From positions 26,786,599 through 26,850,598 of the forward strand of contig NC_088309.1 in NCBI RefSeq assembly GCF_910592395.1: a stretch of 64,000 nt of DNA, in the 5' to 3' direction. Shown piece after piece: positions 4,201 to 31,000 of this stretch. The translations under genes and the position numbers were made by a program. This DNA comes from Lineus longissimus (taxonomy: Eukaryota > Nemertea > Pilidiophora > Heteronemertea > Lineidae). The first letter of the stretch is position 1. The number at the start of each line of letters is the position of its first letter. The notes beneath the pieces were generated by a model that saw only the letters and a program-made list of their open reading frames with translations, was not told where the DNA came from and did not search any database.

Positions 4201-7200
4201 AGGCCATGTTTATTCTTTGAAATTTGAATTTGATTTGGATTTTCCAATTATATTGAAATAGGCAAAATCGGTGATTAATATGAATTTCATTTTTCATTTT
4301 TTATTTTGTTTCTAGTCATCATTGGACAATGATATCTAAACATTTACGTGACTGAACCTGATCATGGATATGATATCATATCTATGTTTTTAATGCATAC
4401 CTTTGTCATTTTCAGACGTAGTTGATGTTCACGTGGCCGGCAAGGAGGCATTCTCCTGCGGTCAAATCAATATGGAATTTGGCGCCCCACTGGTCGAGGT
4501 CTTCAACTTCGCCATTGAGCAAGTCAACAAGAAACAGGGAATATTCGCAAATGTCTTACCTGGGGTCAGCTTGGGTGGTATCACAGTGGATTCTTGTAAG
4601 AGTGCAGTCAGGGCAGGTAACTTGGTGGCGGACTTTCACAGTGGTGTGATCACATTACAGGACGCTGGTGGCCAGGTCGTCGAACCGGATCGAGTGCAAC
4701 TGTGGATTGGTGGCCAGACAACTCCCGAGTCCATTGAGATGGCTGAGGTTCTTAAGATCCTTGGGATACCGCAGATCAGTTATGGAGCGACTGGGTATGC
4801 TTTGAGTGACAGAGACAAGTACCCAAACTTTCTACGAACGGTCCCCGCAGATGACAAGCAGGCCCGCGGTTTGATCAGCTTCGTCAAGACATGGAACCTT
4901 GTGAATGTCCAGCTTGTATCCAGCCCCGATCCCTATGGTAACTACATGTCCAGGGAGTTCATCCGCCTTGCCAAGGTCAATGGTATCTGCATTACAAACG
5001 ATATTGTGTTTCAAGGGAATGGCACCTTCACTGAAAGCTTGGCGGATGAGGTAGTGCAGACACTTCTCAAGAATCCTGAGGCTTCCGTTGTACTTGTCCT
5101 CCTTCGCGATGATTATGTCAATGGCTTCCTGAGAGCGCTCGACAGGGGCACCGGCAGGCAGCGCAAGTTTTTCCTCATTGGAACAGACACCTGGGGTGAT
5201 CTCCTTAGGCAGACGACAGGAGTGAGTGAGACAATCCTCCTCAACGCTGTAACCTTCAATGTTGAGACTGCAGACATCCCCGAGTTTGACACGTACCTAG
5301 ATGCTAAAAACCCAAACAACTATTTTCGCAACCCCTGGTTCAATGAGATGTATGAGGCAGCCTTTGACTGTACTATTCCTAACAACATCGCCAGTTATGC
5401 CCGCACTTGTTCCAACACACAACTCGGAATACCTCGGCTATGGAATTACACCCAGGATCCATTCGCTCTTTATATGGAGAATGCTGTTTATTCGGCAGCC
5501 ATTGGCATCCACCATGCTCTGACTGAGATCTGTGGCGAGAATTACGTTGGCGCATGCCCGGATTATGTCGTGGCCGGAGAGAAGCGACAGCGGATCAGGC
5601 ACGCTATGAAATTGGTCAACTTCATTGATGCGACCGGGCAGCCATTCAAGTTTGTCCTCAATGGAGAGAGCGTCCGGGGTTACCACATATATCGCCTGGA
5701 GAAAGAGGCTGTGGGTGGCAATCTTACCTACAAAAATGTAAGTAAATACATGTACATCTATGTATGTCAGTCTATTTGAGACTTACCAGATGCCCTAACA
5801 GCTGCAGTACACCCTCCCGAAGCATCCCGATTTCGCCGTTCTAAATATTCGTTCAACTGGTTCAGGAAAGAGGGCTAGGACGGGGATGCTCTATAACAGC
5901 CACAAGCAAATCATGCCAAGCTCATTTGAAAGCCTGAAATTTATGTGTATATATTTCATAAACACTTTCTTAGTGCCATTTCATCGTCTTATCAATGCAC
6001 TACCACTATTCCAACAAAGTGATTCCGAACAGCCATGTTTGATGGCAACGTTTTAAGGTCACACGTGAAGTATAGATGTTTTTCTTTTCTCCTTAAGCCT
6101 GGCGTTATTTCAGTATTCGCACCAGGCCTGGCGTTATTTCAGTATTCGCACCAGGTTACACGATCTTCATAGGATATACATGTATTATTAAAGTCATCTT
6201 TCATTTCTTTGCAGATTGGGAGTTATAATGACACCAACCTCCTTAAATTGGACATCACCTACAACCCCAACTGGTTTTCCAACTGCTCTGACAATAGATG
6301 CAAAGCCTGCCCTAATCTGGTCCCGAAGCTCTCGAGATTCATGCAGCGAAGGAGCTATCGTGACCTTAACCTCGTCGCCTTCTATAATGTGCATCACTCC
6401 GGCAGCAACTACCTTGGCTGTGGCAAGATGAACATAGTCTACGGCTTCCAGAGAATGTTAGCTTTCTTCTACGCAATAGAACTCATCAACAACAACACTT
6501 TAAACGAGTTAGATTCAACAATGAAACTCAGTGGTTTAGCCATTGACTTCTGTGAAAATCCCGCCCAGCTGCGACAGGACTTATTCACCTACTTGAATGG
6601 TGATGGCCTTTGTAACTACGCTAACTACACCGAAATGCTGTATCCTTGGACAAGTGTTGCCTACATGACCACCGGTGCCGCCTATTCTATCATAGGAGAC
6701 GAGTTTTTTACCCCACTTGGACTAACCGCCATTAGCCCCATTGCTACTGCTGTTGATTTGAGTGACAAGAACTTGCATCCTTTCTTTCTGAGGACAGTAC
6801 CACCAGATACCTTACAAGCAAGAGCTATGGACGAAATCCTCAATCTGTTTGGATGGAACTATTTCATGGGTGTAAACACTGATGACGAATATGGCCGCGG
6901 TGCTATGGAAGCCTTGGTTAACCTAGTATCCAATAGGGGTAACAAGTCCTACTGTGTTGGTGCTAGACACACTATCCCAAAAGGTGCCTCCATGGAACAG
7001 GTGAAAGAGATCGTCAGGGACTTGGACAGAAAGCGATTTGGTCGGGTTGTCATTCTGTTCACAAACGTAAAAGACACACGCAAGATCCTTCAAGCTACCA
7101 AGGACCTGAACCTCATTGGTCGGTTCATATGGTTGGGGAGCGAGTCCTGGGCAACTGATGCAAACATTCCACGTGGCTTGGAGGACGTAGCCCGAGGAGC

Positions 7201-9544
7201 CATAACGTTGGAGATCCGATCAGAGCCGGTGCCCGGCTTTGTGAAGTGGATGAAAGAGATCACGATCAAGAACACAAAGAACATCCCCATTGACTGGTTA
7301 CAAGAGTACCTTCAACACATGTTCAAATGCAGGATCGAGAGCAGTATTGTGGTGCAGACTCAATATGCTCGAATGTGTACAGACAATGAACGTATATTAG
7401 ACTTCATGATAGAACCGGACCCCGCAATTTTACACACCATCATATCAGCCTATGTTGTCGCATGGGGACTGTCCAGCGCCAGGAACAAGGAGTGTAAGGG
7501 AGAAGCTATTGATGACTGCTTATGGAGAGTGAAGAGATCTGAGCGTAATAGGATCATCTATGAATCACTGCGTGCAGCACAGTTGAGGGTCCTACCAGAA
7601 CAATTGAAGAATGACTCCTTCCAATTCAAGTTCACAGAGCAAGGCTATGGTGACCTTGGCTACAGTATCTACAACTACGTCCGGCGTCCAGGATCCAAGA
7701 CAGACTACATCTACAAAAAGGTACTTTACACAATATTCTACACTACAGGCCCGAGTGCTGTTTGAAGTACGTTTTGTATTTGCAGTAATTAAAGCTGTGT
7801 AAAAATAGGTTGGTGATGTTCCCTTATCACGGAATATGACCAAGTTTAAACATTGCTGGTACATTCCTTTAAAAGGGGCTAACAAATGTAACAAAAATTG
7901 TCCCTTTCAGGTCGGCTTCTGGATGGAGGAACTTGAGATGCCCAAGACCAGCTACCAAGGTTACTCAGAGACAGGGGGAGCATACACCGCCATACCTATT
8001 TCGACCTGCCCTCGCGATGTGAAATGTGCCTGTTTAACAGGTGGGACTGGAACCTCGACCATCGTAGAGAGATTGTACCCTCCACCAGCAAAGAACGAGA
8101 ACTACCATAAAGCATGGGGTGTCGCTGCTGCAACTCTGAGTGGTCTTGGCATTTCCATAGCTCTTATCATGTTCTTCTACTTCTTATTCTTCTACCCAGT
8201 GCGTGGAGGCACATCCGTCCTCGGCTACCTCCTGCTGTTTGGCTGTGTCTTGGTCTACGCGACCAACTTCGCCTTCTTGTTCCACGCCTGCCCTCAAGTC
8301 TGCGCCATACGGAAATTTTCCCTTGGGATATCCTATTCGTTCTGCTTTGCCGCTCTCCTAACCAAGGCACTGAATACAGTCAGGGTAGACACATATGATG
8401 ACAGGTTCCAAGCACCTTATAAACGTTTCACACATCCCCTCGGATTATTCAGCATTGCAACTGGCATAGCTTTCGTACAGATCATCATTGCGACAGAGTG
8501 GCTGATCCTTCGTCCACCAGATATGGAATACGTATCCTACTTGGGCCAGTCGTACCCGCGCTGCGCACCAAGTGATTTCTACAATGAGGAGCTCCTTCTC
8601 AGTTTGGTCTATCCGATGTTTCTGATAGCCATGACTCTCTTCTTCTCAGCACTGACATGGCGCTCGGAGGACAACTGCAAGGAATCTCGATGGATCTTGG
8701 TCGCCAGTTTCTTCTGTGCTGCCTGCTGGTTAATATGGACGATCGTATCAACCAAGACACAGTTTAAGTACCGAGATGGAGCGGTGGTTGTGGGCAACAT
8801 CATCTGCGCCTCGCTCATGTTGATCTGCATCTACGCCAGGAAGATACACTTCTTTAATAAGTACCAGAAGGAGAAAAAGCAGCAGAAGAAAGAGGAGAGG
8901 GAAATGAAGGAATACCCAGGTAAGATGATCAGAGGGTCATCCACATATTAAACAGTTAGCGGTGAAATACACTTTTAGCTGTTAGTCGCCTCCTCAACAG
9001 AGTGACAAATAAACAAACTATGGCTACATAGAAAATATACCTCTCATTACCAATAAAGAAGAGGCCTATTTCTTATCAATTCCAGCTGAGTAAATTGCTG
9101 TCAAAAGTCGATTGGCTGCACTGCGAAGTGTTTCATTCAACTTCATGATCAGCATTTAGACTTGTCTCAAACTCTAATATTTTTCGTTTTTCAGATGATG
9201 ACCTGTATGGTAATGTATATGAATCTGTGCCGCGACCAGCAAGTGAAAGGGGATCGAAATATCGTAAGTTACATACACCGAAAGCTCATAAACTGGTTAT
9301 CTGTCCGATTTGAAGTCATTGGGAGACTTGGTTGATTATTAATGGTGAATCATATTCCAGTCGTAGTTACTCGTCTGGTCGTAGACACCTTTCGAGCTCT
9401 ACCAGTTTTCTCATATCATAGTGTCCTTTAGGGAAAACAGCCAAAGGCCAGATCAGTACAGTATGCGTTGCCTTGCTTCCGATTCTGCGGTTCTTCTACT
9501 TCTTATTGTACTCAAGGTCGTTTTATTGTGTTTCAGATGCATAA
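1..9544 (+). CDS. Receptor gene A: multi-VFT class C GPCR (5' end outside window)
   Basis: Plasma-membrane class C GPCR with several ligand-binding domains in series. Exons by splice signal and phase: <1-1289, 1801-3091, 3465-3646, 3858-4023, 4416-5737, 6215-7720, 7911-8919, 9195-9263, 9537-9544; all junctions keep frame and give 2279 visible residues. In order: four mGluR-like Venus flytraps (equivalent to VFT2-VFT5 of gene B), one 7TM domain and a short acidic, tyrosine-containing tail ending SKYHA-stop. Each VFT shows the family landmarks LSD-x-PxFxRTVPxD (lobe 1/hinge) and RNPW/F-x-E (lobe 2). The window opens inside the first strand of VFT2 (ITGIFSIH), so only a little of that domain is missing, but a signal peptide and a VFT1 are expected upstream by analogy with gene B. 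Introns are 190-511 bp. Ligand and G protein are unknown. Assignment to class C is firm; the fusion of all exons into one gene rests on phase continuity and the matching structure of gene B. Confidence 0.85.
1801..4023 (+). CDS. Gene A exons: three-Cys linker, VFT3 and next linker
   Basis: Three exons (1801-3091, 3465-3646, 3858-4023). The first opens with a 60-residue linker holding CSSGLACQSC, then VFT3 (VLLAGLFPIHNSG onward; SSTSTRLNDPLLYPMFYRTV; RNPWFNEYYQ). The second encodes the C-terminal lobe crossing and ends NPYKE. The third is the linker VGKWGNNA...CAPCIEC leading into VFT4. The 1291-nt first exon is exactly the same length as its counterpart in gene B. The Tyr-Gly of the pocket loop is Tyr-Ala here (TIYAKDAI). 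Confidence 0.85.
4416..5737 (+). CDS. Gene A exon: VFT4 domain
   Basis: Single 1322-nt exon between a TTTTCAG acceptor and a GTAAGT donor, entering in phase 1 and leaving in phase 0. It encodes a complete flytrap: SCGQINMEFGAPLVEVFNFA at the start, ISYGATGYALSDRDKYPNFL in the ligand loop (Thr kept), SPDPYGNYMS (Tyr kept), IGTDTWGD (Asp318-equivalent kept) and RNPWFNEMYEAAFDC. Among the visible VFTs this one keeps the mGluR amino-acid pocket best. Confidence 0.87.
6098..6155. repeat. Perfect 29-bp tandem duplication in gene A intron
   Basis: Two identical 29-bp copies (6098-6126 and 6127-6155), each containing TTATTTCAG, lie 60 bp upstream of the VFT5 exon acceptor. Perfect identity in an intron implies a recent event. 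Confidence 0.9.
6215..7720 (+). CDS. Gene A exon: linker and VFT5 domain
   Basis: Single 1506-nt exon, phase 0 at both ends. It starts with linker IGSYNDTNLLKL...CSDNRCKAC, then the membrane-proximal flytrap (NLVAFYNVHHSGSNYLGCG; ISPIATAVDLSDKNLHPFFL; DDEYGRGAME; LGSESWATD). Thr, Asp and Tyr of the pocket are retained, and Glu replaces the Asp318 equivalent. It aligns along its length with VFT5 of gene B. Confidence 0.87.
7911..8919 (+). CDS. Gene A exon: seven-transmembrane domain
   Basis: 1009-nt exon. The linker CPRDVKCAC is followed by TM1 (WGVAAATLSGLGISIALIMF), TM2 (LGYLLLFGCVLVYATNFAF), TM3 starting at the conserved Cys (CAIRKFSLGISYSFC) and ending in LLTKALNTVRV, which matches the mGluR TM3/ICL2 LVTKTNRI region. 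TM4 (FVQIIIATEWLIL), ECL2 with its Cys (YPRCAPSDF), TM5, TM6 (CAACWLIWTIVS) and TM7 follow. A basic lysine-rich helix (KYQKEKKQQKKEEREMK) begins the cytoplasmic tail. The C-terminal donor AG|GTAAGA is used; reading through it would add only GKMIRGSSTY-stop. Confidence 0.88.
9195..9544 (+). CDS. Gene A terminal exons: cytoplasmic tail
   Basis: Exon 9195-9263 reads DDDLYGNVYESVPRPASERG then SKY. It joins in phase to an 8-nt coding end at 9537 after TTTCAG, giving H-A-stop. The D-x-YG motif and two closely spaced tyrosines resemble the gene C tail. The last tiny exon is the least certain part; the same phase and a His-like join occur at the gene C terminus, which supports it. Confidence 0.6.
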
Positions 9545-12603: not shown

Positions 12604-13632
12604 TTAAAAATCTTTCAAACAGCTAATGCACCTACCCAACTTTGTTTTCTTTTCCTTCTGGGCTTTCCTGTACTGGTTAAGTAGATGGCACTTCCTGAAG
12701 AAGACAAACCCAAGTAGCCCGAACCCAGAGAACAAGTTTCCTATTGCTGTGGCTCCATCCCTGTACTGCATGTCTGTCATGGTGGAAACGATACACCAAA
12801 CCAACCAGGACCCCATTACGAAGGCGGACCCACCCATGATCCAGCGAGCCTCGTGGTTATTCTCCTTGACCGGCCAGCAGATTCCGGCAAAGAAGGTCGT
12901 TAGACACATCAAGAAGACAACGTAAAGGCAACTGAGAACAAGGCCCTGGTTGTAGAACCATTCGGGTGCACATCGCGGCCATTCCTGTCCATTGAAGTTG
13001 ATGTATTCGATTGTTGGCGGTTCTATGATCAACCATTCGGTTCCTATGATAACCTGGACCAAGATTAAACAGATGGCAATCATCATCAGGCCGGCTGGAT
13101 GCGAGAAACGTCGTCTGCTGTTCACTACGAAGTCGTCTTTCATGAGCCCTGTAATGCGCCAAGTGTTCATGACCTTAACACACATGGGTGCAAAGATCAT
13201 CGCGTAAATGACACCCTGGCAGAATCTGCGAACGCCACACGTGATCGCGCAGGCGTGGACAAGGTAGGAAAAGTTGAAAATGAACATTAGCATGAGGGAG
13301 AAGAGGCAGAAGAAACCAAGACTCTGGGTACCACCCTTCTTTGGATAGAAGCAGATGAAGTGGAAAAAGAGAATGAAACACATGAATGCTCCGATGATGT
13401 TGAGGCAAGCCAAAGCTATCCCAAGTGGCGCTTTGAACGGCTCCTCTTTAACCGGTGGCGGAATCAGTGTACTGTTTTCCGGTTGAGGTATGACTTTCTC
13501 ACAGCCACAGCTCGGGTCGCTGCTGGGGCAAGAAGACGTGGGGATGGCGTTCGGTGGGTACGGAAGACCAGTGGCCTGGTAGGTTTTGTAATTGGTTGTG
13601 TTGATATTCAGCGAACCAGACCATTTGCCCAA
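12604..13632 (-). CDS. Gene B exon 12: seven-transmembrane domain
   Basis: Linker LGKWSGSLNINTTNY...CPSSDPSCGC, then TM1 (LGIALACLNIIGAFMCFILF), TM2 (LGFFCLFSLMLMFIFNFSY), TM3 from Cys (CGVRRFCQGVIYAMIF) to VKVMNTWRI, TM4 (ICLILVQVIIGTEWLI), ECL2 Cys (WPRCAPEWF), TM5, TM6 (VMGSWLVWCIVS) and TM7. It ends CLKDF-stop at 12604. A donor-like GG|GTAGGTGC at 12636 corresponds to the gene A tail donor, so a spliced tyrosine tail further downstream is possible; I could not find its exon. Confidence 0.85.
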   Translation of the reverse strand: MGKWSGSLNINTTNYKTYQATGLPYPPNAIPTSSCPSSDPSCGCEKVIPQPENSTLIPPPVKEEPFKAPLGIALACLNIIGAFMCFILFFHFICFYPKKGGTQSLGFFCLFSLMLMFIFNFSYLVHACAITCGVRRFCQGVIYAMIFAPMCVKVMNTWRITGLMKDDFVVNSRRRFSHPAGLMMIAICLILVQVIIGTEWLIIEPPTIEYINFNGQEWPRCAPEWFYNQGLVLSCLYVVFLMCLTTFFAGICWPVKENNHEARWIMGGSAFVMGSWLVWCIVSTMTDMQYRDGATAIGNLFSGFGLLGFVFFRKCHLLNQYRKAQKEKKTKLGRCISCLKDF

Positions 13633-16600
13633 CTGAAAAAGAGAAGCAGGAGCAGTGTGATTATCAAGGAGAGGTTCTATGACTGTAAGGACCTTGAGAA
13701 GATAAGATTGTTCTAATGTGGGGTACCTTTCTTTCTATGCAACGAGCTTGAATTGTAAGATCTCGTGTGAATTGGAGCTCAGAGCCTCATCCTTGCAGAG
13801 ACCCTGACAAATCACGATGGTTCTCTAAAGCCATGATAACAGAAATTCCTGGCAACTGAAAGAGGAAAAATGGTAAAAAAATACACACCTTCACAAATTT
13901 GTAGTCACTGCCGAACTTCTGTAGGTTATGAACGAAATAGCCAGTATTGCCATAACCACCAAGCCGGAAGAGGAACTTGAAATCTTCTTTGATGTCGTCT
14001 GGGAGGACGTCCAAATTGGCTGACTTGATGGCGCTGTAAATCTGGGTTCTTCTCACGTCTTCTAGCTTTATGTTTGTGCAGGCCCCAACTGTACAATTGG
14101 GGGATCTGTACAGGTCTGACATCCCCCTTGCGGTGATGTACGTAGCTATAATCGTCTGCAACACATCCGGGTTGTCTTGAATCATGCTTTGGGTCAAGAC
14201 GTCTGTGTTGGAACAAGGGACTTTGTATTGGTGTGCACGGACTAGGCTTCCTGTGATGTAACACTGGTGAGTATCTTGCCAAAACTGATGGAACCAATCG
14301 ATTGGGATTTTGTACTGATTCGTCATATTCAGACCTAGGGTCCAGGTCCTAAAATCGCTTACGCCGTAGTTGCGTATCGATAGAGTGATAGCACCACGTG
14401 CAACGCGCTCGACATTTTTGTGCACTGATAACTTGTTGGACCAGCCACGACCTGCGATGAAGATGAATCGATTTATCAGGCTGTAACCATGGGCAGCGTT
14501 CAAGATGAGAGTTGTGTCGCTTTCAGAGGTAAACATCACCAGAGCACGTCCGTACTTGTATTGGTAAGCCATAGTAGTAATGATGGAGGCTGCCTCTGCT
14601 GCAGTTGCGTCCTTCGGCACCATGAGACTCTTCCCCATACAGAGCGTACCATTGGATGATGCAACACTCGAGAGGATGGCGGCGATGTTGGCTTTACCAC
14701 ACGCATCATCACTGTACACAGCAAGAAAGTAATCCCATTTGAATTTAATGAGGATATCTGCGATAGCCTTTGCTTCAATGGTGCAAGGTGGGATAGTCCT
14801 CAGAAAGAATGGATGAGTGTTGTTGTCACTCAAAGCTGGAGAATCGGCCATTGGGCTGATGGAAGTGATCTTCTTAGGGCCGAGTATCTGGCTAGCTGCT
14901 GTACTGTAGGTGTCTCCCTGGGTCATGTAATTGACGACGGTCTCTGGTTTGATGAGGTCTGTGTACTTCGCATAGTAGCAAATGCCATTTCCAGAAAGGT
15001 ACGAATATAAGTCAATTCTCATTCTGTTGACGTTAGCACACGTATCAATGGCCAACCCTCCTATCTTCACGTCAGCGCTCCCAACTTTGCCAGCGTTGAT
15101 CTTTTCAAGTGCGTAGAAGAATGCCAACATTTGCTGAAAGCCTCCATTGATGTCTAGCTTACCACAGTTCAGGTAGCTCGGACCTGGCTCATGAATATTG
15201 AAGAACCCGACCATATTGATGTCCTTTGTACTGGGAACCTGCATATAGATAGACTTCTTCCTGGCTTTGTAGGGACACATGTTACATGATTCTTCGAAGG
15301 AGCAGTTGGAGTTCCATTTGAACTGGTAGTTAGACTGAAGGTTGAGGACAGATGTCTGGTTGTAGTCATCTACATATTTACCAATCTGAAAGACAAAATG
15401 AATATTAAAACGTGAATAAAGATTGATGCATTATGTTAATGTTCGAGCATAAATGTAGTAAACAAGGAAAGTTTTCATCTGGTAGTTCTGAAAGGCTTAT
15501 TAAATATGCACGAGTTTAAGCGGCTCAGCAGGCGTCTTGATACCTCATCAGTCTTTATTACGGTACAGGTAATTACGAGCGTAATGATAGGCGCCCTCGG
15601 TCGGCTGAAACCCTTGCAAACATTTGAGGCTTCAGCAGTAAAGCCCGCAGCTTACTAGCCGCCAACTTTGGCGACAAGATGCGTTCAGCTGACGCCTCTC
15701 GACGCCGAAGTTGGCGGCCAGTGGATCCCGGTCAGAGCATACCTGCCCAGAATCGGCGTCCAGTAGCGTCTTTTTCGCAACTTTAGGCTGCCATTTTGAA
15801 ATCATGTGACATCAAGACGCATACTGATTGGCCATAGCCTCGCCGCCGACGCCAATTCAGGCGGCAATCCGTAGCACACCTGGCTTCTTCTTGCGTTCAA
15901 ACACGGCGACACACGTCAAAAATCAAACATGTTAGATATTTGGCGTTTAGTTGCGGCAAGTCGCCTTCGCTGACGCCGTTCGTAGCAGAATAGGGATTTT
16001 TTTCAGGCGTTCAGGACTCTTGCGGCAAAAAACGCCAGTGAACGCCGAAGTTGGCGGCTAGTGTGCTGCTGGCTTAAAAGTGATTTCATTACAACAACAG
16101 AACAGTCAAGGCCGGTGTGACACTCACTAGAAAAAGGAACATATCATTTTTGGTGCAATACTCAATGGGTCGGATTCAGCCCAAGTGTAAATGTCCTCTA
16201 CAGCTCCCTTGCATTTAAGTCGAACAGTGCATCTCAACTTAAATGAACTATCTAGTGAAATATCTTGGTATCAGAGACTTTCCTAGCTTACCCTTTTATA
16301 AGCCAGTATGTTCCCTTGAATGGCCAACTTGTCAAGGCTGTAGACATCATATCCTCGAATGCTCTCTCCATCACCAACGAACTTGAACAGTTGGTTGGTT
16401 GCGTCAGTGAAGGACGTGTTTTGCTTGATACCCTGAAGGACGACCATCTTCTTATTCTGACTGGCTCTCCACTTGTCGCACAATCCTGTATGGTTTGTAC
16501 CGCAGAGGTCCTTGATAGCGTGGTTGATCCCAATAGCAGCGGAATACACGGCGTTGACGACGTACATCACTAGAGGGTCCTGTTTGTATTTTGCAGCAGT

Positions 16601-19600
16601 TGTCGTGACGCTTTCAGTCGTCTTAGGGCATGGTTTGGGGTACTGCAAGATGTTGCCAGGAAGAGTACATTGGAATACCTTTTCATAGTATTCGGAAAAC
16701 CACGGATTTCTGGTGTAACTGTTAGGAAATTTCGTCTTTAGGTATTTGTCGAAATCTTTAACTGGCGCAGACTCGAGATTGAAGGTGACAGTCCCGTCGA
16801 GGAAGCTCTCTGCTCCTTTGATTACTGTAGGATCATTGCCCCAGCCTTCGGAGGCAATAAACCTGAACTTGCCTACGGCTCCTTGGATACCAGTGGCCTT
16901 AACCGCCTTCAGAAACAAACTGATGTAGTCGTTGGGAAGGATGGTGACTACAACAGTTGCGTTCGGTCGATTAAGAAGTAAGTTAACAAGGTCTTGGGCG
17001 CTCTGAGGTGTGATGACGCCACGGTCTTGGAAGGTAATGTTCTGCGCAATGCATATGTCGTTTTTTTTTGCTATTCTGATCAGCTCCGTTGAGGCAGATA
17101 TTCCATAAGGATCTGGAGAGTTGATGACTTGGATATTATCGATGTCAAACTTCTTAAGCAGTGTCACAATGCCTTTCATCTGTTTTTCGTCTGACGGAAT
17201 GGTCCGGGTGAAGAAAGGATACTTCTTCCTGTCCTTGAGCTGCATGCCTGATGAACCGTAACTGATTTGTGGGATCCCGAGCACTGTTAGCACATCAGCC
17301 ATCTGCATGGAGCGGTCAGTCGAAGAAGCGCCAACATACGCAACGATCTTCTTGGGGTCAACTTTCTGGCCATTCTTTTCCAACGTGATCACACCACTGT
17401 GGAAGTCAGCGATGAGGTTCCCTGCTCGGATAGCACTCTCACATGCGTCAAGGCCAACACCACCCAGCTTGACGCCTTGAAGAATGTTGCCCCACCAGCC
17501 GCGTTTGCTGTTGACCTGTTCTATGGCGAAGTTGAAGGCTTCGATGAGCTGGAACCCGCCGACTCCATTCTTGACACCGGCACATGCGAATGGAAAGGTG
17601 TCACGAAGATGCACATCAAAGACACCTTAAAAGAGTTTAAAAAGACTTAAGTTATGCATCACCTGGGATAAAAAAGACTTTTCTACACTGGTGGTTTATT
17701 AAAGCAGGACATGATTAAAGGACATAACGAATAAGGACAAATAAGGGCAGCGTATGTGAGTGTACAATACTCTTGGATCGGTGTCAGAACCCTATGGCTT
17801 AACCGTGTGCATGTATGTTCGAATAGCATGGAACAGAACCGCGGATATGATGTTCATCGTACAAGTTCCTGACTTACCTCCAATCATGACGTCTCCCTCT
17901 ATTAAAGTGAATTTCTCCTTCTTGTCCGGCACGGAACCAATCTTACAAGCATCACAAGGACTGCAGCCAGTGGGGAGGTTCTGATAGTACTTTATCGTGG
18001 CATCGTGTTCAGGGAGTATCTCGGCTTGTGCACCATCCGACCGGCCAATCTAAGTAAGATTAAATCAGTGCATTCAGATTAACAAATGTCAACCTGTTGA
18101 GAGACGACAGACATGAATCTGCAGGACGCCATTGTCACACCAACTTAAAACTTCCCAGGAGCACGACAAAGAGCACTTCAAGGGGAGGTGTCCATGTATT
18201 CACTGAAAACGGCTTACTTCCTGTAAGCAAATCAAGGCAATAACAACAACTAGAATGTTGCTCCTCTTTGGTTGTGGTGGCCACAACAGATTCTGACAAA
18301 GGTTGAATATCCTGTCCTTGCCAAGCTTGGAATTTCTCAACGAGAAGATGTGATAACACGGCCCTCCCTGTCAAATCGTTTTCCACAATGTGATGTCACA
18401 TGAATTCACACTGTGTTTGGGATTATTTAGCCCAGTCGTTTTCACTTACTTTGGTGTATTTCTGTTGATACTTGAACACATCATACCCCATGCTTCCCGC
18501 TCTTTCATTGAACATAAATGTGTGGTTCTGGGGTTTCCAGAGGAAGTTAACCTTTGCAAGATTGTCAAGAATCTTCACATTGATGTCATCACCGGCAAAT
18601 TGGGCGCAGACTCCTAGAATCAAAATTTGATGTAAGTTTTTAATTAATGAACAGGTTTGAATTGTTGTCTCAAAAGGTGTTCCACCACGACGAAGTCGTT
18701 TATACCGAGATATGGTTTCAACTGTAAAAACAAATACAACTTGAGAGCTGGCATAACAATGTTGATAACAAGGAATTATTGGATGTAAAGCTGGCTGTAG
18801 ATGGAACTTGAATTAGCCTTTCTGATTGCGACATCTTATTTGAATGAGCCAAAGCTTCCCAATATTTCTGAAGGATTACGTGATTTAGACTTGCCCTCAC
18901 CTTTGCCTGAAGTGAAGTAGCTACCGCAGACTTCAGTCAGGGTGATTTTGATGGCCTGGGTGATGGCAAACACTGCGTCGATGGTGGACACGACCCAGTT
19001 TTCTTGTTCGAAGTTGGGTGACATCGTGAAAGAGGTGGTACCTTCATTGATGCAGGGTTTTCCGTACTTGGTTGCACTTCCTATGTCACATTGATAGAAT
19101 TGCTGGAAGGCTTCATCAAACCAAGGGTTCCTGCTATTCTTTGTGGCGTACTTGGTGCTCATATAGTTGGTGAATTCTGGAATGACAGGCGCTTGGACTT
19201 TCATGGTAACCGCATTTGCAGCCTGATTTTCGTAGCCACGTACAACTGCCTTAAGGGTCCCCCAGTTTTCTGACCCAATGAATTGTATATTCCCCGCCGC
19301 TGACACGTTCTTCTTTGCAGCCAACAACTTCGCGACGTGCTCTGGCTCAGCGATGACGAGGACTACTCTTGTGGTTGACTTCGCTAGCTCTACCATTATC
19401 GCATTCGCGTTACCACCATCAGCGTCCATTTCAAAGCAAGCAGGGATGCACAGTTTTTTATCCTTGGCGGCTCTCCTAAACTGAGAGAAAGCAGTCCTAC
19501 CATAGATGTTTCCGCTGTGCACAGTTTGGATACAGCTAACCCTGAGTTTGGAGATGAGTGCGGCCATTCCTGTCATTTGTTTGTCGTCTGGTGGTACGGT

Positions 19601-22600
19601 CCGGTAGAATGTACTGTACTCGACCTTGTCCTTGAGAACTGTGCTGGTGGCACTCGGGCTGACTAGCGGAAGCTGAAGCTGTCGTAACATCTCCCCGACC
19701 TTCATGGAGGTCAAACTGCCATAGGATAACCAGGCATGTATGCGTGTTGGGTTGATCGTCTGCCCGTTCTTGCTGAGTTGTAACGTCTGCGAATGGACTG
19801 TGGAAACCAGATTTGACGCCTGCATTTCACTTGAGCAATCATCCAATCCTACGCCGCCCAATTTGACGCCGTCTAATCTGACGGGGGCGCTGCCAGCCGC
19901 ACCTTTGTTGACCTCATCAATAGCCCAGGCAAAGGCTTCACTGTATTGGAATCCGTTGTAGGGTTTGATGTCCCCGCAAGTGTAAATGTTGCCTCCAGTG
20001 TAATGGATTGGAAAGAGAGCCCCGATGAGGATCTGACCATCCAAATGCATGACCTTACTGGTTAACTTCTGCAAACATGTCCGACAGGTGGTGCCACCGG
20101 CGCACTTCGAGACCACTGCTAGGTTGTTGTAAAACTCGGCCTGCGCTGAGTTAATATCGAGTCTGTTAGTGGCGAACTTGAATTCACCTAGCTAGAAATG
20201 AAAACATTAATTAAAATCATGGGATTTAGTTTGGATTAGTTCACCGTTTTAGATTTCTAGGATTTGGATTTTCTTGCCAGTATTTCTCTGTGTGTTTGAT
20301 AATGCATCCATCGAAAGGACGGTCGGCTATAAAGTCAGGCTTACCTTGTCGTATTGTTTGTTATTTTTGTAGTTGTAGATTTCATAAATGCCTTCCCCTT
20401 CTCTGTCTAAAAATCTGAATGGCTTGTTTGCCTCATCACTAAAGGCAGCCTTCTCGATCTCAGCAAGGAGCACCTCACCCCTGGTCGGGGCATTGATGAA
20501 TTTGTTGCAAACACCACTATACCCTGTACCACCACAGAAATGGGCTAAGGTCCTGTCAAGTCCATTTGAGATGGCGTAGACAGCATTGATGATGTAGTAC
20601 GCATATTCGTCTTGTTCGAAGTAGACCCCGTCTGTGATTGGTTGGTTCGTGCTGCAAGGTTTATGGTAGAATGGCTGGTGAGCTGCCGAGAGATAACAGT
20701 TGTGTGCCTCTTGATAGAACTCCCTGAACCACGGATTCTCGACATACGTGCTGACCTGAAGGGCCTTCAGGTAGTTCTCATATTTCGTTAAGAACGGTGA
20801 AGACAACTTGACAGAAAAGCTGCCAACAGCTGTATCTTCAAGCCCTCGAGTGACTTGCAGTGAGTTGCCCCAAGTTTCACTTCCAAAGAGGAGAAGCTGT
20901 CCTTCTTTCTTCAATGTCTTAATTGCCTGCAACAGCCCACGGAAATCTTCTATTTCACCAAAAACTACGACCACCATTGCTTCCTTCTTCGCAAGAAGTT
21001 TATTTACAATTTCTTCATACGATCCTTGTGTGCCGATTTCAAATTTCGCGGTAACGCACAAGCCTTCTGAAGCTGCCTGTGAGATGAACTCCCGTACTCC
21101 CTCACGACCGTAATCATCTGGAGCCTGGACAGCCTGGACGTAATCCCATCCCATCTGTTTCAGCGCCAGGACGATGGCTCTTGCTTGTTTGTTGTCCTTG
21201 GGTACAGTCCGCATGAAGTACGGAAATTTACTCCGGTCAGAAAGGGTGGTACTGGTGGACCTATAGCCGACCTGGGGCATTCTGATCTTGTTTAGCACCT
21301 CCGCAACAGTAATGGAGATCGTGCTGTCGTGAGCCGCCGTGTAGGCTACTGTGTTCAGTGGTTTGATCTCCTTCCCATCTGCTCCAATCACCGTGATTAT
21401 ACCACTGTGGTAATTAGACACCATACTGGACGCCAGAGCATTACTGCTGCAGTCATCGAACCCTAAAGCTCCGAGGCGAATATTTTTCAGAATGTTAGGA
21501 AATTTTGTTTTGACGTTCTTAATGGCGTAGATGAAGGCTTGCGACAACTGTGCCCCATCGGCTCTGACTCTGCTGCAGGTGATCCCGTTCACGTTGTTAT
21601 GAACCGAGAAGACGGCGTTGATGTAGATGTCCCCGAGAATTCTAAGGTACGTTGTTGGAGACTGAAAGGTCAGGCAGATACCACAGCCAGCTGGTGGACA
21701 GAGCGAGTCCGGTAGAGTCGGGAGAGCAGTTGTCCTGATTGCGTCATACATCTTGATTTTACCAGTGAACAAGTCGAGCTTCTGCTTGTAATAGTAGCCG
21801 ACCTGAAAAGATGATGTGATGCAGTTAGTACTGGGTGCACTTTCACTTTGAAATTAACGCATAAGAGTAGGGTATACATATATGATGCAAAATTTGATTC
21901 TGATGTTGACGAATTAACGGTCGTACAACGGTCTCCTTTGGGCAGAGTCATACATGGTGGGTGAAACCTTGCACGACTAGATGACTCAGATTAAGAGTGT
22001 CCCTTCTTCCTTCCTGTGTTATAACTGATTCGTACCTTCTTTGGTAACCATTTTCCTCCAATGTCGTTGTAGTTCCACACTTCAAGATAGGAGTTCATCC
22101 TTTCACCGGCGCCATCGAATGAGATCTTGTGGGCTGTGTTGGTAGGAAGCGCATTGGTTGTAAGACTTGGAAGACCTTCAGCAGATCCGAACGTTATATC
22201 GACTTTCTTTAGGTAATTATTGAAGAAATCATCTGTTGTCATTGCAGATACCGCTGGGCATGCTGGAGTAGAAGATCCGCAGCCTTTGTCTGACCGTGCT
22301 TTCTTCAGGGCGGCGGCGAATGTGTAGACAGCATCAATGGTGCTCAACGCATACTGGTTCTGGACATACTCGTCACTCTTCTGGGAAGGGCTGATGGTCG
22401 GGCAATTGGCTAGGGTGCCGTAAGGTGCATATGTCACACCTGGTAGCTTACAGTTATTGACGCTCATGTACCAGTCCGCATGCCACGGGTTACCAGCGTT
22501 GTTCTTTTCGTCCAAGGACAGCCAATACGTTTTGAACTCGGAACTCTCTCTGGAGCCTGGTGCAATGGACAGATACCCACGGGTGTTTTGGCTGCTCTTC

Positions 22601-24675
22601 GCGAAGTATTGGTTTCCTCCTATAGTACCAGAGAATAGCCACTGCAGCTTGCCAGTGCCGCCGACACTACTGGCCTGGTCTAACAGCGCTTTCGGGATGA
22701 TCGGAGAACCAAAATAGACCACAGCTGTGGCTGAACTTCCAGCCAGGCGTTCCAGGGTGCTTTTAACGACGGTTGGGTCGGTGTTTGCTGGATCAACTGG
22801 GATAGCTTGGGTAACGCAGATGCCATTGTCGAGGGCAAGCCTTAGAAGCTCGCTGTAACCATCTTTCCCGTAGACATCATTGCTGTAAACGAGGTTAATG
22901 AATTTCCATTTGAGTTTCTTTAGGACTTCCAATATGGCCTGAAGAAGAAAACAAACACAAATGGTTTTGTCAGTATGCTCGAAGGTATCAGTTCGATATC
23001 TACAATGATATTACTTATCATCTTGTCTAAAGGAACCCGTTGCAAATTGTGGTATGAATTTGGCTTAGAATGTTGGACAACTTACAATGTGTGACATTTC
23101 TCGATAAGAACAGAAACCCGAAAAGCTGCTCCGGAATGGTCGTTCAATTGAGAGTATATACGTATTTTGGTGTTAATCAACCATCTTGTTGACTTCAAAC
23201 AACAGGCACATTAATGGTGACCAAGAGGAAAACACAATAAATGACTGAATCTTACCGTGGCCTGCAGTGAGTCTGAAGGTATGGTTCGCATGAATGATGG
23301 GTATTTGGAGATATCACCAAGGTCAGTGCTGGTCGATGATGGTGAGACCTGCGCTCCCTTGAGCTTCCCCAGCCAGTCAGCCACGCTTGTACTCACGCCA
23401 CTTTTACTGGCACCAATGATACCTGAGGTAAAGTACAGTGGACAGTCAATCTTAAGAGGGCAACAAACTTCTTATAAACACTCGTGTTTTTTTATCGTTG
23501 GAGGAGAGGATCTATGGTATTTGATATAACACTCAAGTGCTTGTTCTAATATTGATATTACGCATCTTTTCAGACGATAGAGACTTTTTAAATCATTGTC
23601 TGATTGATTGTTTTTATCTCGATCCAGGTTGGCGTCTACTTCTAGGAAATTTAGAGAATATGGTAAAGCTTACCCAGAAACATCTTTCCAGAGGTGTTTT
23701 GGCAGAATCTGCTATTGGAATAATAATTCGGGTAGACCTGCATGATCTCCTTGGCAGCAATCTCTGGTCGCCCACATGTATCAAACACCTTCATCCCTGA
23801 AAAAAACATGACAGATGAGAGAGTTGGCCAGAGACCAGAGACGACGGCTTTGTTCACCAGAAATTGGAGACTCAATAGTTTCTTTACCAGAGACTGGAGA
23901 CTCGGCAGATACTTTGGTGGTCCAGAGATAGGGAAAACAGCAGATTGTTTACCAGCCTCTGGAGACACGACGGATTGATTGCCGAAAACTGGAGACGCGC
24001 ATTGTTTTCCAGAGACTGGAGACGTGGCAGATTTTGCACCAGACAAAGGAGGCTTTGCATATTGTTCGGCAGAGCTTGGAGATATGACGGACTGTTTGCC
24101 ATGGACCAACAAACCCTTCTCAAGACAGTCATCAGAAAAACGTCTTGTCATGAAAACTATTGAAATATATATTTACCTAGCTTTACCCCTGGTATGTAAT
24201 TTTGGCTGTTGATTTTATTGATTGCAAAACGAGCAGCTTCAAAGGACGGAAGAATAACTGGAAGATGAAGATGAGAATCGTGCCATATAAGACAGCTTTT
24301 ACGACTTATTCATATTTATATATATGCTTACATATATCACACTACGTACATATTGACTACTTAAGACTCGTTAAAATTTAGATTGACACAATCCTTGCGA
24401 TTACCGTGTAGATTTGTTGCTCCAGTAAGGTAAAAGATAATTAATGGAACTGTCCTGAAAGACCTGTCGTGATGCTCACCTGAATCTGGAGTACCACAGC
24501 CTTGGCCGTTCTGCCCTCGGTTGCGAAGACTAAACAGCCCAGCGATGAACGCATCAGCATTCCGTTCGATGATGACTGAGCTCTTGGTGTTGTCGCATGT
24601 TGACATGGAGAGGATTTGAGACGCCACCTTGGACACCAGCATGGCCAAGCAGAGTATATACAGGGACCTCCACAT
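12604..24675 (-). CDS. Receptor gene B: five-VFT class C GPCR
   Basis: Complete gene as modelled. Exons in order (minus strand): 24675-24480, 24257-24177, 23796-23674, 23422-23256, 22938-22036, 21802-20345, 20191-18901, 18613-18450, 18049-17878, 17625-16292, 15385-13889, 13632-12604. Total 8415 nt, 2804 residues, frame kept at every junction. Order: signal peptide, VFT1, VFT2, VFT3, VFT4, VFT5, 7TM. All VFTs are mGluR-like in the LxD-x-F-RTxP loop and the lobe-2 helix. Class C receptors normally have one VFT, so five is exceptional; length is about three times that of an mGluR. The start is Met at 24675 because it opens a hydrophobic signal peptide (MWRSLYILCLAMLVSKVASQ) just after a CCCAG acceptor-like site. 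It is transcribed convergently with gene A and divergently from gene C. Ligand unknown. Each exon is well supported; that one transcript holds all of them is inference from phase and from the shared layout with gene A. Confidence 0.85.
13889..15385 (-). CDS. Gene B exon 11: linker and VFT5 with altered pocket
   Basis: 1497-nt exon, phase 0-0. Linker IGKYVDDYNQTS...CSFEESCNMC, then a full-length flytrap (MVGFFNIHEPGPSYLNCG). At the four mGluR1 positions I could align it differs each time: Thr188 is Asp (PMADSPALSD), Asp208 is Cys (IPPCTIE), Tyr236 is Cys (DDACGKAN) and Asp318 is Arg (AGRGWS). The fold-defining parts are intact, so this looks like a structural or retuned module rather than a broken one. 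Confidence 0.86.
15655..16061. mobile_element. Foldback/MITE-like element in gene B intron
   Basis: About 407 bp in the intron between VFT4 and VFT5 exons, bounded by inverted CTAGCCGCCAACTT (left, 15655) and AAGTTGGCGGCTAG (right, ending 16061). A third, internal copy of GCCGAAGTTGGCGGC lies near 15700. The interior is rich in GGCGT/ACGCC words and has no reading frame of note. A non-autonomous DNA transposon is the likely source; no clear target duplication seen. Confidence 0.65.
16292..17625 (-). CDS. Gene B exon 10: VFT4
   Basis: 1334-nt exon (gene A counterpart 1322 nt), acceptor TCTTTTAAG, starting GVFDVHLRD, which aligns with VVDVHVAGK of gene A. Ligand loop ISYGSSGMQLKDRKKYPFFT has Ser for the usual Thr. 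SPDPYG and ASEGWG follow, then RNPWFSEYYEKVFQC. Complete domain. Confidence 0.86.
17878..20191 (-). CDS. Gene B exons 7-9: linker, VFT3 and following linker
   Basis: Exons 20191-18901, 18613-18450, 18049-17878. Linker LGEFKFATNRL...CAGGTTCRTC; VFT3 with PLVSPSATSTVLKDKVEYST, SGNIYGRTAFSQF, GSENWGTLK and RNPWFDEAFQQFYQC; C-terminal part GVCAQFAGDDINVKI to QKYTK; then linker IGRSDGAQAEI...CSPCDAC. The acceptor at 20191 overlaps a CTAGCTAG; the chosen AG is the only one that keeps frame. Splitting into three exons with phases 0-1, 1-0 and 0-1 is identical to gene A. Confidence 0.85.
20345..21802 (-). CDS. Gene B exon 6: linker and VFT2
   Basis: 1458-nt exon, phase 0 at both ends. Linker VGYYYKQKLDLF...CPPAGCGIC, then a whole flytrap (IYINAVFSVHNNVNG; GALGFDDCSS; VGYRSTSTTLSDRSKFPYFM; DDYGREGVREF; FGSETWG; VENPWFREFYQEAHNC). 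Thr, Asp and Tyr are kept and the Asp318 position is Glu. It aligns with the exon at the left edge of the window. Confidence 0.88.
22036..24257 (-). CDS. Gene B exons 2-5: VFT1
   Basis: Four exons (24257-24177, 23796-23674, 23422-23256, 22938-22036) complete the outermost flytrap: SFEAARFAINKINSQNY, then MKVFDTCGRPEIAAKEIM, then VSPSSTSTDLGDISKYPSFM (Ser-Ser-Thr pocket text kept) and a 903-nt exon with NDVYGKDGYSEL and GNPWHADWYM. The D318-equivalent segment is SGTIGG, so the acidic residue is absent. VFT1 is the only module broken by several introns, as in gene C, unlike VFT2, 4 and 5. Confidence 0.82.
23827..24100. repeat. ~39-bp-period minisatellite in gene B intron 2
   Basis: Degenerate tandem copies of a unit resembling CCAGAGACTGGAGACG followed by GCAGATTGTTT, about seven units. 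The period is a multiple of three, so the minus strand stays open (24151-23651) through the array into exon 3. It is still intronic: exon 2 has a good GTAAAT donor, and read-through from it meets a TAG within a few codons. Confidence 0.75.
24480..24675 (-). CDS. Gene B exon 1: signal peptide and first strand of VFT1
   Basis: Encodes the signal peptide and ADAFIAGLFSLRNRGQNGQG, which matches gene C (DYFYIAGLFSVREAGTAGGD), then ends in phase 1 at G|GTGAGC after CGTPDS. Strong donor; start choice explained under the gene entry. Confidence 0.8.
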
Positions 24676-26706: not shown

Positions 26707-27189
26707 GTAAGTTCGAAAATAATTGAACGAACCAACTATTTATCCAATGATCGTTGTTTATATGAACTGCGAATGGTTATTCCAATTACCTAGACCTGCA
26801 TTCTCTGCTCGGGCTGGTTGTTCCATGTGCATTAATGTACATGTATCATAGTCATTTGTTAAGACGATTTGCTAAATAGTTCTCATCAGTTGTATACATA
26901 AGGCATCAAGAGACCAGCGCTGAACCTCTATCACCACAATTTTAAAGATGACTGGCGTTCTTGTGAGACATTATAGATATGTCAATACCACAACGGGTCC
27001 TGGCAGTTTACATACTTAACAAATACAATACAATAAATTGCCATGAGACAAGATTTCAATTAGTCTGATTAATTGTTGTGTTTTCAGACACAAATCATTG
27101 GCAATCCATAAGGCATTCCTCAAAAAACCCGTTGTAATATTGACAATGTAATTTTGAAATACTGTTACGTAGAACCCCTTGCCTTTCAG

Positions 27190-28035
27190 ATGAAGGCTGT
27201 ATTGTTGTGTTTGGCCATCCTGGTATTTGACCAGACTAGTGCTCAGTCCTGTCTAAGACAAGAGAATGTCGCTCAATGGCAGAAAGTCAAATCTAGCACG
27301 ACGTCAAGTGACTACTTTTACATCGCTGGCCTGTTTTCCGTCCGCGAGGCTGGTACAGCAGGGGGAGATTGTGGAAAATTCAGGCTGGCAGGGATACAGT
27401 TCTTAGAGGCATTCCTTTTTGCCGTCAGAAATGCCAAGGCCACGACTAAAGTTCTTAAAGGTCTGACTGATGTTGCCGCTATTGGATTCGACGTATGCTC
27501 AACGCCAGACATTGCAATTGAAAAGATCCTGAATTTTGAGAAATGCGTTATTCGTTACGGAGGAACGAATGGATACCCCAATGTTGAACCCTCGAGAACT
27601 TTCGCCTACATTGGTCCTGAACAGAACGTTGTAAGTGGAGTCTCAAAGCTGATCAGCTCTCTTCCCAAGGCAGACATCGCAGTTTCGTCTACCCAGTCTT
27701 ACCTGACAAAACCAGGCTGGTCCGCATACCAGTTTCGGACAGTCGCCAGTGATACCAAGCAACTGGCAGCCATCGTGGAGGTGCTGAAGATCCAGAAGGT
27801 TGCCGTGGTTCAGGTGGTCTACTCTAGCTCCATGATGGGCAAGAGCATGTACGAATCGTTCAAGATGTTGTCCAATGGTACCGTGTGTATTGAACAGGCA
27901 CTGATGGTGAATCCGAACGATAATATCGGCCTTTACAGGGACACGGTGAAGCAGCTCAAGTCCAAGAGGAAGACAAGGGCTGTCATCCTGCTTTTGGACA
28001 GCAAAATCACTGAGGACAAGGCAAAACCATATCAG
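27190..28035 (+). CDS. Gene C exon: signal peptide and VFT lobe 1
   Basis: 846-nt exon ending TAT-CAG|GTAAGC. DYFYIAGLFSVREAG starts the flytrap; GFDVCSTPDIAIEKIL is equivalent to VFDTCGRPEIAAKEIM in gene B VFT1, which makes gene C closest to VFT1 in this part. Confidence 0.85.
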
Positions 28036-31000
28036 GTAAGCAGATTCGTGGTACTAGGTGCTAAAGTTGGTGACGTTCCATCTCATACATTTGTACAAAA
28101 AAACTGCAGCTCCACTAATGGGCCACCTCCTTCTCCATTCAGCTTCCCTTTTTCCTACTCTTCTATCAGTTTCGTTTCTATTCAAGGGATGCGTGGTAGA
28201 TCTGGAAGATTTTGAATGTTACTTAGTAATAATGCGAACGCTCAAAAGACGCAATATGCACAATATTTCCAGCAAAACAAACTCCAACGCGCTGTCTCAA
28301 TGGAGATCAGGTGGCCTGACTCGCGTTCAGGAATGACCGAAATTGAAAGTATGTTGTATCCTTCTTTAAGGTGTGGAAAGTACTGCGTGCCACTGCTTTG
28401 GAGAGGGTACAAGGCTCGTTCACGTGGTATTCCACAGACGCGTGGGATCTCGATAAACTCGACCTGACCGGTGTGGAGACCGCCGCTCTGGGATCCATCG
28501 TCATCGCACCCAAACTAGGTGGAGAGGACAAGTTTCAATACGAACAGTTTTCAAAGGCTTTCAAGTAAGATTTGTGCCCGAGTTATTCCACAGGTACATA
28601 TTATACCTACATACCTACATACCTACATGAGGTGGCGCCGCTTGCAGTCGGTTCTTGGTTGTGACTTGTGTCTCCGCAAATACTTAATTATCAGAAGAGT
28701 TATGTCACTTGCCTCGCAATGCTAATCAAATGGATAAAGTCTTATTCAGTCTGGGTTAGACCTTTTATTTTTCTTTCTAGGGCACTAAGGCCGCGTGCAA
28801 ATATGGACAACCCTTGGTTTGACAGGTTCTGGGAGGAAAAATTCGAATGCTCATTGAGTCCGCCCACAGGAAAAGCATGTGATGCGACACATGTTGCTCT
28901 TTGGGAGCAATTGAAGATCGATAAAAGGGTATCTTATATCATCCAGGCGGTGAATGCTGTGGTGAAGGGGCTCGAGATCAAGAGAGCCGAAATCTGTGGA
29001 GGTAGGTGAAGCATAGGTTGTGACATTGTCTTCTTTATAAAACCCGGTTGTGCCATTGTTCTAATAATGTAATGTGCTATTGCAGGGTGTGCCATATGCT
29101 ACAGGGGTACCCATGTGTCTACTGGTGAGCCTTGTCTATGCAGGGTGTTATATTTAGTTACGTGGTGTACCATGTCTCGGTTCGATGTGCAATCTCCACT
29201 GGGCGTGATATGTTTCTCCTGAATGTGTCATGTCTATACAGGGTGTGATATGAAGCTACAGGGTTGCACTATGTCTCGTTTGGATGTACTTTCTCTCAGT
29301 GTCTTTCCTGGGTGTGCCATCCCACTCCAGAGTCTATCATGTTCTACAAGGTTTACCACATCTCCACTTGATAACCCTGTGTGATATCCCTACAGGATTG
29401 ATGTGTCATGTCGTCTGTACATGGTGTGCCTTGTCTCGACTGGATGGTTATGTCTCTGCTGGGTGTGCTCTGTCTTTACTAATCGTGTCGTCTCCCTATA
29501 TGTTGCATCATGCTTCTACAGGGTGTTCCAAGGCTCTACTGGATGTGCATGTCTCTGCCGGATGTGTTATGTCTCTGCTGGTTGTGCTGTCTCTACTGAA
29601 TGTATCATCTCTTGACATGGTGCACTATCTTTCTACAGGGAGCGCCATTTGGTGATATGAATAAAGTCTAGTAAACGTTTTTACTTCAGTTTTGTACAGA
29701 AAGGCCTAGTGTAAATGCACATGGAGTTTAAGATAAAAGCATTTGCTAGTCTTTATTCATATCACCCATTGTCTCTTATATTGGATGTGAATGTGCCTCT
29801 TCTCTCCAGGGAAAACAACTATTTCTTTAGGGTCCGATAGGTCTTCCCTGGATGTGCCACCCCACGACTGTAAATAGGGGAACAATAGGGAAACACTGAA
29901 AGAAGGGAAACACCGACAGATGTTACAGTGCAATTATAGCTGATAATTGCTCCGGTTTCTCATTTCAGTTCAAGACTGCTCATATATTTGCATCTCTTTC
30001 AGTGGCAGCTAACAGTAGCGATCTGTGTTCGATGTTTATGACGAGGGGGACAATAATGGCTGAGGTGGCGAGCTCCATCAAGACAAACAGCAAGAAAGAA
30101 CAGATACAGGTGTTTGACAGTCGGGGTGACGCCTTTACGACCATGCTCAGCATCAACAACATCAGGAAGGGACTTGGCGGTACACCTGACATAGTAGAGG
30201 CAAGCCGATTTTCCATCCCTACATCGTCAATAATTCAAGATGCCAGTACATGGGAGGAGGTGCTCAAGGGCCAGGTTTTCCTTTTCACTCAAGAGAATAG
30301 CCAAAAACCACAATGAGACTCATGGAAAATTGATTAGGATAGACAAGTTCAGAGTTTTACATTGGTCTTTTGGCCTTGTCAACCTCACACCATACTTAGG
30401 CTACGTATTGGTCAAATTTGCTACTAACACAATCATCACAATACTGCCCCTTGTCCTCCTTCTTGCACTGTCGGGCCTGGGCAGATAGGATGGTCGGGCT
30501 TCTTCTCAATGGAGAACTGATGAGCGATGCATGAGGAAGCTTCAAGCGAGCCTTTTCGGCAATAGTCCTCGTGCGCTACCTGAAATATTTCAATCTATTG
30601 TCTCAACTTTTTTTCTGATTCCTTTACCTCTTATTTTAGGTAATGTCGTACACTCAGCGAGGGAACTTGGTACCTGTAGTGGATCGGAAAAGTGATCCCA
30701 TCACCTACGACGACAAGTCCAATGAAATCATCAGGTTCGAATCAAAATGCGACTATCTCTGCAAGGTATGTGCTCCACCGACAATCGGTCCGATCGATCC
30801 AGTAGCGCCAACAGAAGACCCGAACCTGCCCACCACGCCTGGAGGCAATGCCAGCAACGTAACCATCGCCTACCGGGCCGTCAGGGACGACATCTGGGTC
30901 ATCCCCCTCATGATACTAGCCGGTCTTGGCATCTTCATCGTCCTCTGTTTCGAGATCTACGTCCTCTCCAAACTCATCGGCACCAAGGCGATTAGAATGT

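Follow-up and report, generated by a model that had tools for sequence, protein, structure and literature searches.

A predicted class C receptor with five Venus flytrap domains in series, and its five-domain paralogue, in the nemertean Lineus longissimus

In a 64-kb stretch of the Lineus longissimus genome, hereafter the window (C2:26786599-26850598 of the 391-Mb assembly of 30 contigs, C2 being contig NC_088309.1), we identified a gene for a class C G protein-coupled receptor (GPCR) that places five Venus flytrap domains in series ahead of one seven-transmembrane (7TM) domain. Sequence and paralogy together show this gene, called gene B, to encode a real and conserved receptor of the class, with a predicted signal peptide, five repeats of a flytrap followed by an abbreviated three-cysteine linker, and one 7TM domain. 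A second gene of the same build, gene A, is its close neighbor. The explanation that we consider probable as a whole is that of a conserved five-flytrap receptor, its dimer tied at both ends, whose flytraps sense amino-acid-like ligands. An earlier interpretation made from the letters alone (the sequence-only reading) had proposed a single receptor with five flytraps for gene B; that proposal, which mentioned neither gene A nor the lack of a match to the nine-Cys domain NCD3G, is now strongly supported, and by two genes.

Two neighboring genes with the same architecture

The rebuilt model of gene B reproduced exactly the 12 exons, their coordinates and the 2804 residues of the sequence-only reading. 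The exons (24675..12604, minus strand) form a single frame with one stop, a TAA at its end, and the 11 introns are 153-906 bases long, all with GT-AG boundaries (11/11). The profile search that had been proposed as a check found PF01094 (ANF_receptor, the domain abbreviated here as VFT and numbered VFT1-VFT5 from the N terminus) in five stretches (E 9.7e-203), Peripla_BP_6, a family of the same fold type, likewise in five (E 1.8e-37), and PF00003 (7tm_3) once, at residues 2528-2776 and profile positions 3-251 of 251 (E 2.6e-31); no other Pfam family matched the protein up to E 10. The hydropathy profile shows a single N-terminal segment and nine windows that merge, through two pairs, into seven segments at 2534-2774, with no membrane-type segment in between. 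The signal peptide is called from hydropathy alone, and its end is approximate. Gene B thus has the seven-helix domain and the N-terminal VFT of class C GPCRs and departs from the usual single VFT per subunit, as both it and gene A have five; if the family is taken as defined by 7TM and VFT, membership stands despite the number.

A profile search of the window with the five gene B VFTs revealed gene A, which is cut by the left window edge, VFT1 and VFT2 starting outside, and was completed from the 20 kb upstream. It lies on the plus strand at C2:26782789-26795549 (window -3809 to 8951), convergent with gene B (tail to tail) across a gap of 3.65 kb, and its 12 exons encode 2831 residues with five VFTs and one 7TM (gene model, with Pfam on six of its exons). 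The two proteins are 43.6% identical over 2767 aligned residues; their intron phases are equal at all 11 introns and the intron columns coincide at 10 of the 11, the remaining one being 3 columns off, at a gap. A paralogue repeating the five VFTs, 12 exons and 11 phases at such a short distance argues that the architecture of gene B is not chance.

VFTs at the same position in the two genes are 41.9, 43.3, 47.1, 45.9 and 39.3% identical (VFT1 to VFT5), whereas noncorresponding pairs among the ten are 18.5-33.8% identical. In a tree of 12 rows, with only two mGluRs as outside reference, A1+B1, A3+B3, A4+B4 and A5+B5 pair with support of 100/100 and A2+B2 with 99/98; VFT2-4 form a cluster at 97/95 (87/97 in an earlier tree that lacked A1 and included part of gene C, described below). 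As same-position VFTs pair both in the tree and by identity, the five-VFT string is shown, given this sampling, to have been complete before the duplication that gave A and B and to have been retained since. The introns between modules are all of phase 0, suggesting that the array grew by duplication of a phase 0-0 exon module. Across the units VFT2-5 and 7TM, A and B are identical at 64-70% of second, 54-60% of first and 32-37% of third codon positions, and four-fold sites in codons for identical residues agree in 25-32% of cases, near random (five units, without VFT1). The saturation of third positions and conservation of first and second ones point to selection on the five-VFT string as a protein.

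Several separate genes or pseudogenes in a row, with one VFT each, could mimic one frame, the true receptor then being VFT5-7TM. Such a row would fit the layout of gene B, where VFT2 and VFT5 occupy one exon each and VFT3 and VFT4 two each, as well as the presence of single-VFT class C genes in the same genome and an AATAAA in each of gene B introns 9 and 10. None of the five gene B exons opening VFT2-5 or 7TM extends upstream in frame to an ATG, and the sole stop is at the end. In gene A, two of the four module-opening exons tested (7, 9, 11 and 12) do reach an upstream in-frame ATG, which favors separate genes and makes this argument for one protein weaker there: the extension of exon 9 holds six ATGs in 117 codons, partly overlapping exon 8 in another frame, unlike gene B, which has zero open codons upstream of exon 9, and that of exon 12 holds one ATG in 34 codons, the corresponding 34 open codons of gene B having none. 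Since gene A repeats the VFT order and every phase at so low an identity, we regard separate genes as very improbable. An assembly artefact or very recent repeat expansion is harder still to believe: misassembly is known to arise at tandem repeats, but VFTs inside one gene are just 18.5-32.4% identical, third codon positions have reached saturation between the two genes, and the window and the upstream stretch contain no N.

Linkers, cysteines and ligand sites

After every VFT of the two genes comes a linker that has three Cys in a span of 7-10 residues (10/10). The nine-Cys domain NCD3G (PF07562) was not found in gene B up to E 10, nor up to E 1 in six gene A exons including the 7TM exon. All ten VFTs keep the Cys of lobe 2, whose partner in mGluRs lies in the Cys-rich domain; one linker Cys could pair with it, and the remaining two with each other. 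VFT3 of both genes carries two extra Cys (C1196 and C1228 in B, C1215 and C1247 in A) not seen in other modules, perhaps an added lobe-2 disulfide.

In mGluR1, Cys140 of loop 2 forms an inter-subunit disulfide, according to passages of PMC5457512. In both genes, VFT1 and VFT5 have a Cys at the mGluR1-aligned position and VFT2-4 do not. The suggestion that the outer flytraps serve as a stalk or dimerization surface is refined by this pattern, which places candidate inter-subunit Cys at VFT1 and VFT5 and none in VFT2-4.

To compare ligand sites, we aligned the VFTs with mGluR5 and mGluR4 and named the sites (S165, T188, D208, Y236, D318, R78 and K409) by what we take to be their mGluR1 numbering. 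Nine of the 10 VFTs retain the equivalents of D208 and Y236 and have T/S at that of T188; the S165-equivalent is S/T in 8 of 10 and the D318-equivalent D/E in 8 of 10. The D208- and Y236-equivalents, missing only from VFT5 of B, fit the earlier suggestion that the receptor could bind several ligands. VFT5 of B lacks all five alpha-amino-acid contacts, with Arg at the D318-equivalent, and conventional amino-acid binding is not expected of it. Its C2164 and C2192 occupy the sites of the ligand-binding Asp and Tyr of the other nine VFTs, and a disulfide, a metal site or decay are candidate roles. A C2164-C2192 disulfide locking this VFT shut found no support, as the AlphaFold2 model best matches mostly open or antagonist-bound mGluR chains. 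An Arg equivalent to R78 occurs only in VFT2 (A and B), and a Lys equivalent to K409 in none of the ten, with Arg in VFT1 of A; the positions for the glutamate side chain are thus not conserved, which makes glutamate a less than obvious ligand.

The same residues bear on whether the outer VFTs bind ligands at all. The five-VFT gene could be real and its outer VFTs a structural stalk or adhesion device, with only one or two VFTs signaling, and the near absence of the R78- and K409-equivalents, the lost site in VFT5 of B and the single losses in VFT1 of B and VFT5 of A would agree with that. A stalk would hardly need the D208- and Y236-equivalents, which persist in nine VFTs while the paralogues differ at more than half of their residues, and we consider the stalk unlikely.

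The five-VFT ligand receptor that we favor would form an mGluR-like dimer, its subunits cross-linked by the loop-2 Cys at VFT1 and VFT5 and its VFT2-4 left without an inter-subunit bond. VFT2-4, and perhaps VFT1 and VFT5 of A, would bind alpha-amino-acid-like ligands, and VFT closure would be relayed along the chain via the disulfide-tied linkers to VFT5 and then to the 7TM domain; VFT5 of B, its ligand residues lost, would probably serve to relay the signal or to clamp the dimer. The receptor as a whole may combine the input of several different extracellular ligands, or of multiple copies of a single one. The loss of ligand residues in one paralogue recalls GBR2, described as the nonbinding GABA-B subunit in passages of PMC5457512, and raises the idea of an obligate A-B heterodimer with ten VFTs, disulfide-tied at both ends, in which VFT5 would be the more ligand-competent in A and ligand-dead in B, the two dividing their tasks much as the GABA-B subunits do. 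We hold this pairing to be doubtful; if true, it would make a long multi-input chemosensor, in which the inputs of several amino-acid-like ligands are computed ahead of a single 7TM pair.

Several observations weigh against the explanation that we favor. Ligand, dimer state and signaling are all deduced from residues, and the predicted-structure model of the 7TM domain is weak (predicted local distance difference test, pLDDT, 52). The S165-equivalent is Ala in VFT5 of A and Asp in VFT5 of B, the D318-equivalent is Gly in VFT1 of B, and neither gene retains the Trp after this position in VFT1, so VFT1 and VFT5 of A may not bind amino acids. The occurrence of the loop-2 Cys in all four terminal modules of the ten has a chance probability of 0.005, but of 0.1 when A/B pairs are counted once. 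Its assignment in VFT1 depends on the fuller alignment, because an earlier one without A1 put Asn of B at this column and Cys124 some residues on. Close to its N terminus, VFT1 of both genes carries another extra Cys (C27 in B, C31 in A), a possible intrachain partner of the loop-2 Cys. Finally, the seventh transmembrane helix lacks the PK pair, presumably a motif of this helix, in both A and B and keeps it in gene C.

Rarity in the genome and other features of the window

A whole-genome search for ANF_receptor, exon by exon, gave at least 93 matches, a lower bound as 115 of 148 candidates were scored. When matches on the same strand within 15 kb were counted as one array, five-copy arrays occurred, among the candidates scored and thus again as a lower bound, at two places, genes A and B. 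One other group (C14:11317010-11318489) consists of two partial matches that overlap in the profile, and all remaining groups imply one VFT copy. The genome has 44 matches to 7tm_3; in the 20 kb upstream of eight other 7tm_3 exons, seven showed one VFT in profile order and one showed none.

The window also holds gene C, a related class C receptor with a signal-like N terminus, a single weaker VFT split over exons, and a 7TM domain. Its linker contains the three-Cys motif CDYLCKVC, like those of A and B, and it is possibly a single-VFT relative of their ancestor. Coordinates are collected in Table 1. The phosphatase gene is one that we take to be PPM1D-like, and Rfam gave no match within the 64-kb window; COX1 was not found in the assembly. 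By eye, intron 2 of gene B (23820-24130) shows short repeats that include words like GTCTCCAGTCTCTGG, which Tandem Repeats Finder did not report.

Table 1. Features of the window and of the adjoining part of gene A (window coordinates; negative values lie upstream of the window)
Feature	Position	Strand	Basis or remark
Gene A exons 1-5 (VFT1)	-3809 to -505 (C2:26782789-26786093)	+	
Gene A exon 6 (VFT2)	3..1289	+	exon start at -177, outside window
Gene A exon 7 (VFT3)	1801..3091	+	
Gene A exon 8 (VFT3 end)	3465..3646	+	
Gene A exon 9 (linker, VFT4 start)	3858..4023	+	
Gene A exon 10 (VFT4)	4416..5737	+	
Gene A exon 11 (VFT5)	6215..7720	+	D208-, Y236-, T188-equivalents kept; S165-equivalent Ala
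Gene A exon 12 (linker, 7TM)	7911..8951	+	exact 3' end less certain
Gene B start codon and hydrophobic N-terminal segment (putative signal peptide, end approximate)	24616..24675	-	gene model, hydropathy
Gene B exon 1 (VFT1)	24480..24675	-	gene model
Gene B exon 2 (VFT1)	24177..24257	-	gene model
Gene B exon 3 (VFT1; loop-2 Cys124 at 23702-23704)	23674..23796	-	gene model, alignment
Gene B exon 4 (VFT1)	23256..23422	-	gene model
Gene B exon 5 (VFT1 lobe 2)	22036..22938	-	gene model
Gene B exon 6 (three-Cys linker 21674-21700, complete VFT2)	20345..21802	-	gene model, Pfam
Gene B exon 7 (three-Cys linker 20075-20104, VFT3)	18901..20191	-	gene model, VFT profile
Gene B exon 8 (VFT3 end)	18450..18613	-	gene model, VFT profile
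Gene B exon 9 (three-Cys linker 17945-17965, VFT4 start)	17878..18049	-	gene model, VFT profile
Gene B exon 10 (VFT4)	16292..17625	-	gene model, VFT profile
Gene B exon 11 (three-Cys linker 15275-15304, complete VFT5)	13889..15385	-	gene model, Pfam
Gene B exon 11, loop-2 Cys2099	14978-14980	-	alignment
Gene B exon 11, C2164	14783-14785	-	alignment
Gene B exon 11, C2192	14699-14701	-	alignment
Gene B exon 12 (three-Cys linker 13501-13530, Pro-rich stretch, 7TM 12691-13437, short tail, stop)	12604..13632	-	
Gene C, only partly modelled	27139..31896	+	VFT profile scan, open reading frames (ORFs), Pfam
977-residue ORF, coiled-coil-like by eye	45121-48054	-	no Pfam family at E 0.1
PP2C-type phosphatase gene, several exons	53441-57045	+	PP2C in 2/3 ORFs
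Large minisatellite array, units of ~101-105 bases and multiples	59495-61558		Tandem Repeats Finder

Relation to described receptors

The best PDB matches of gene B were mGluR5 for VFT2 (E 4.5e-63), mGluR4 for VFT5 (E 8.6e-42) and mGluR3 for the 7TM domain (E 1.3e-12), and those of VFT2 (best 60 of 101) and VFT5 (best 60 of 91) were all mGluR or CaSR. Genes A and B share with mGluR1-8 the VFT fold, the lobe-2 Cys, the loop-2 Cys in VFT1 and VFT5, and most residues of the putative amino-acid contacts; they differ in having five VFTs instead of one, a three-Cys linker where the nine-Cys NCD3G was not found, and glutamate side-chain residues that are not kept. GPRC6A is another class C receptor with a VFT ligand domain, and described members of the class usually have one VFT per subunit. 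Like GABA-B receptors, A and B are class C proteins with VFTs ahead of the 7TM domain and without NCD3G; unlike them, with their one VFT per subunit, they have a Cys linker after each VFT, and we do not file them as GABA-B because their sequence is nearest to mGluR. A recent survey (PMC12716839, section 9) lists mGluR, T1R and CaSR as ANF plus NCD3G and GABA-B as ANF alone. T1R and CaSR resemble A and B as class C receptors with a VFT ligand domain, CaSR being among the PDB matches, and differ by their NCD3G; CaSR VFTs also score below those of mGluR.

Tandem VFTs before a transmembrane signaling part are also found in BvgS and EvgS, whose VFTs belong to another binding-protein class. These are bacterial histidine kinases without a GPCR domain, and the likeness is one of layout, not kinship. 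Passages of PMC4352136 report BvgS homologues predicted to have one to five VFTs, and a closed membrane-proximal VFT2. The invertebrate Venus kinase receptors join a class C GPCR-like VFT to a tyrosine kinase (PMC4026697, in part), thus sharing the domain with A and B and differing by the kinase in place of 7TM. The main text of PMC3703292, on these receptors, contains no "two VFT" or "multiple VFT" wording; PMC6307864 has no term for tandem or repeated VFTs, and PMC4302439 mentions neither Venus flytrap nor ANF_receptor. Phrase matches in the open-license literature (for one set of phrases, 30 of 51) gave tandem VFTs only in the bacterial proteins EvgS, BvgS and the cyclase CdgH. Unnamed protein-database entries with a five-VFT build may exist, and absence from print is not proven; judged by its sequence, the five-VFT, three-Cys-linker build appears to be a departure from described class C GPCRs.

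With candidate inter-subunit Cys in the end modules only and three-Cys linkers throughout, the predicted receptor contrasts with the single flytrap, joined in the mGluR group by a nine-Cys domain, of the described members. A natural five-flytrap receptor would suggest that the closure signal can travel through several domains, and it would provide a ready-made multi-input GPCR for studying how ectodomain motion reaches the membrane.

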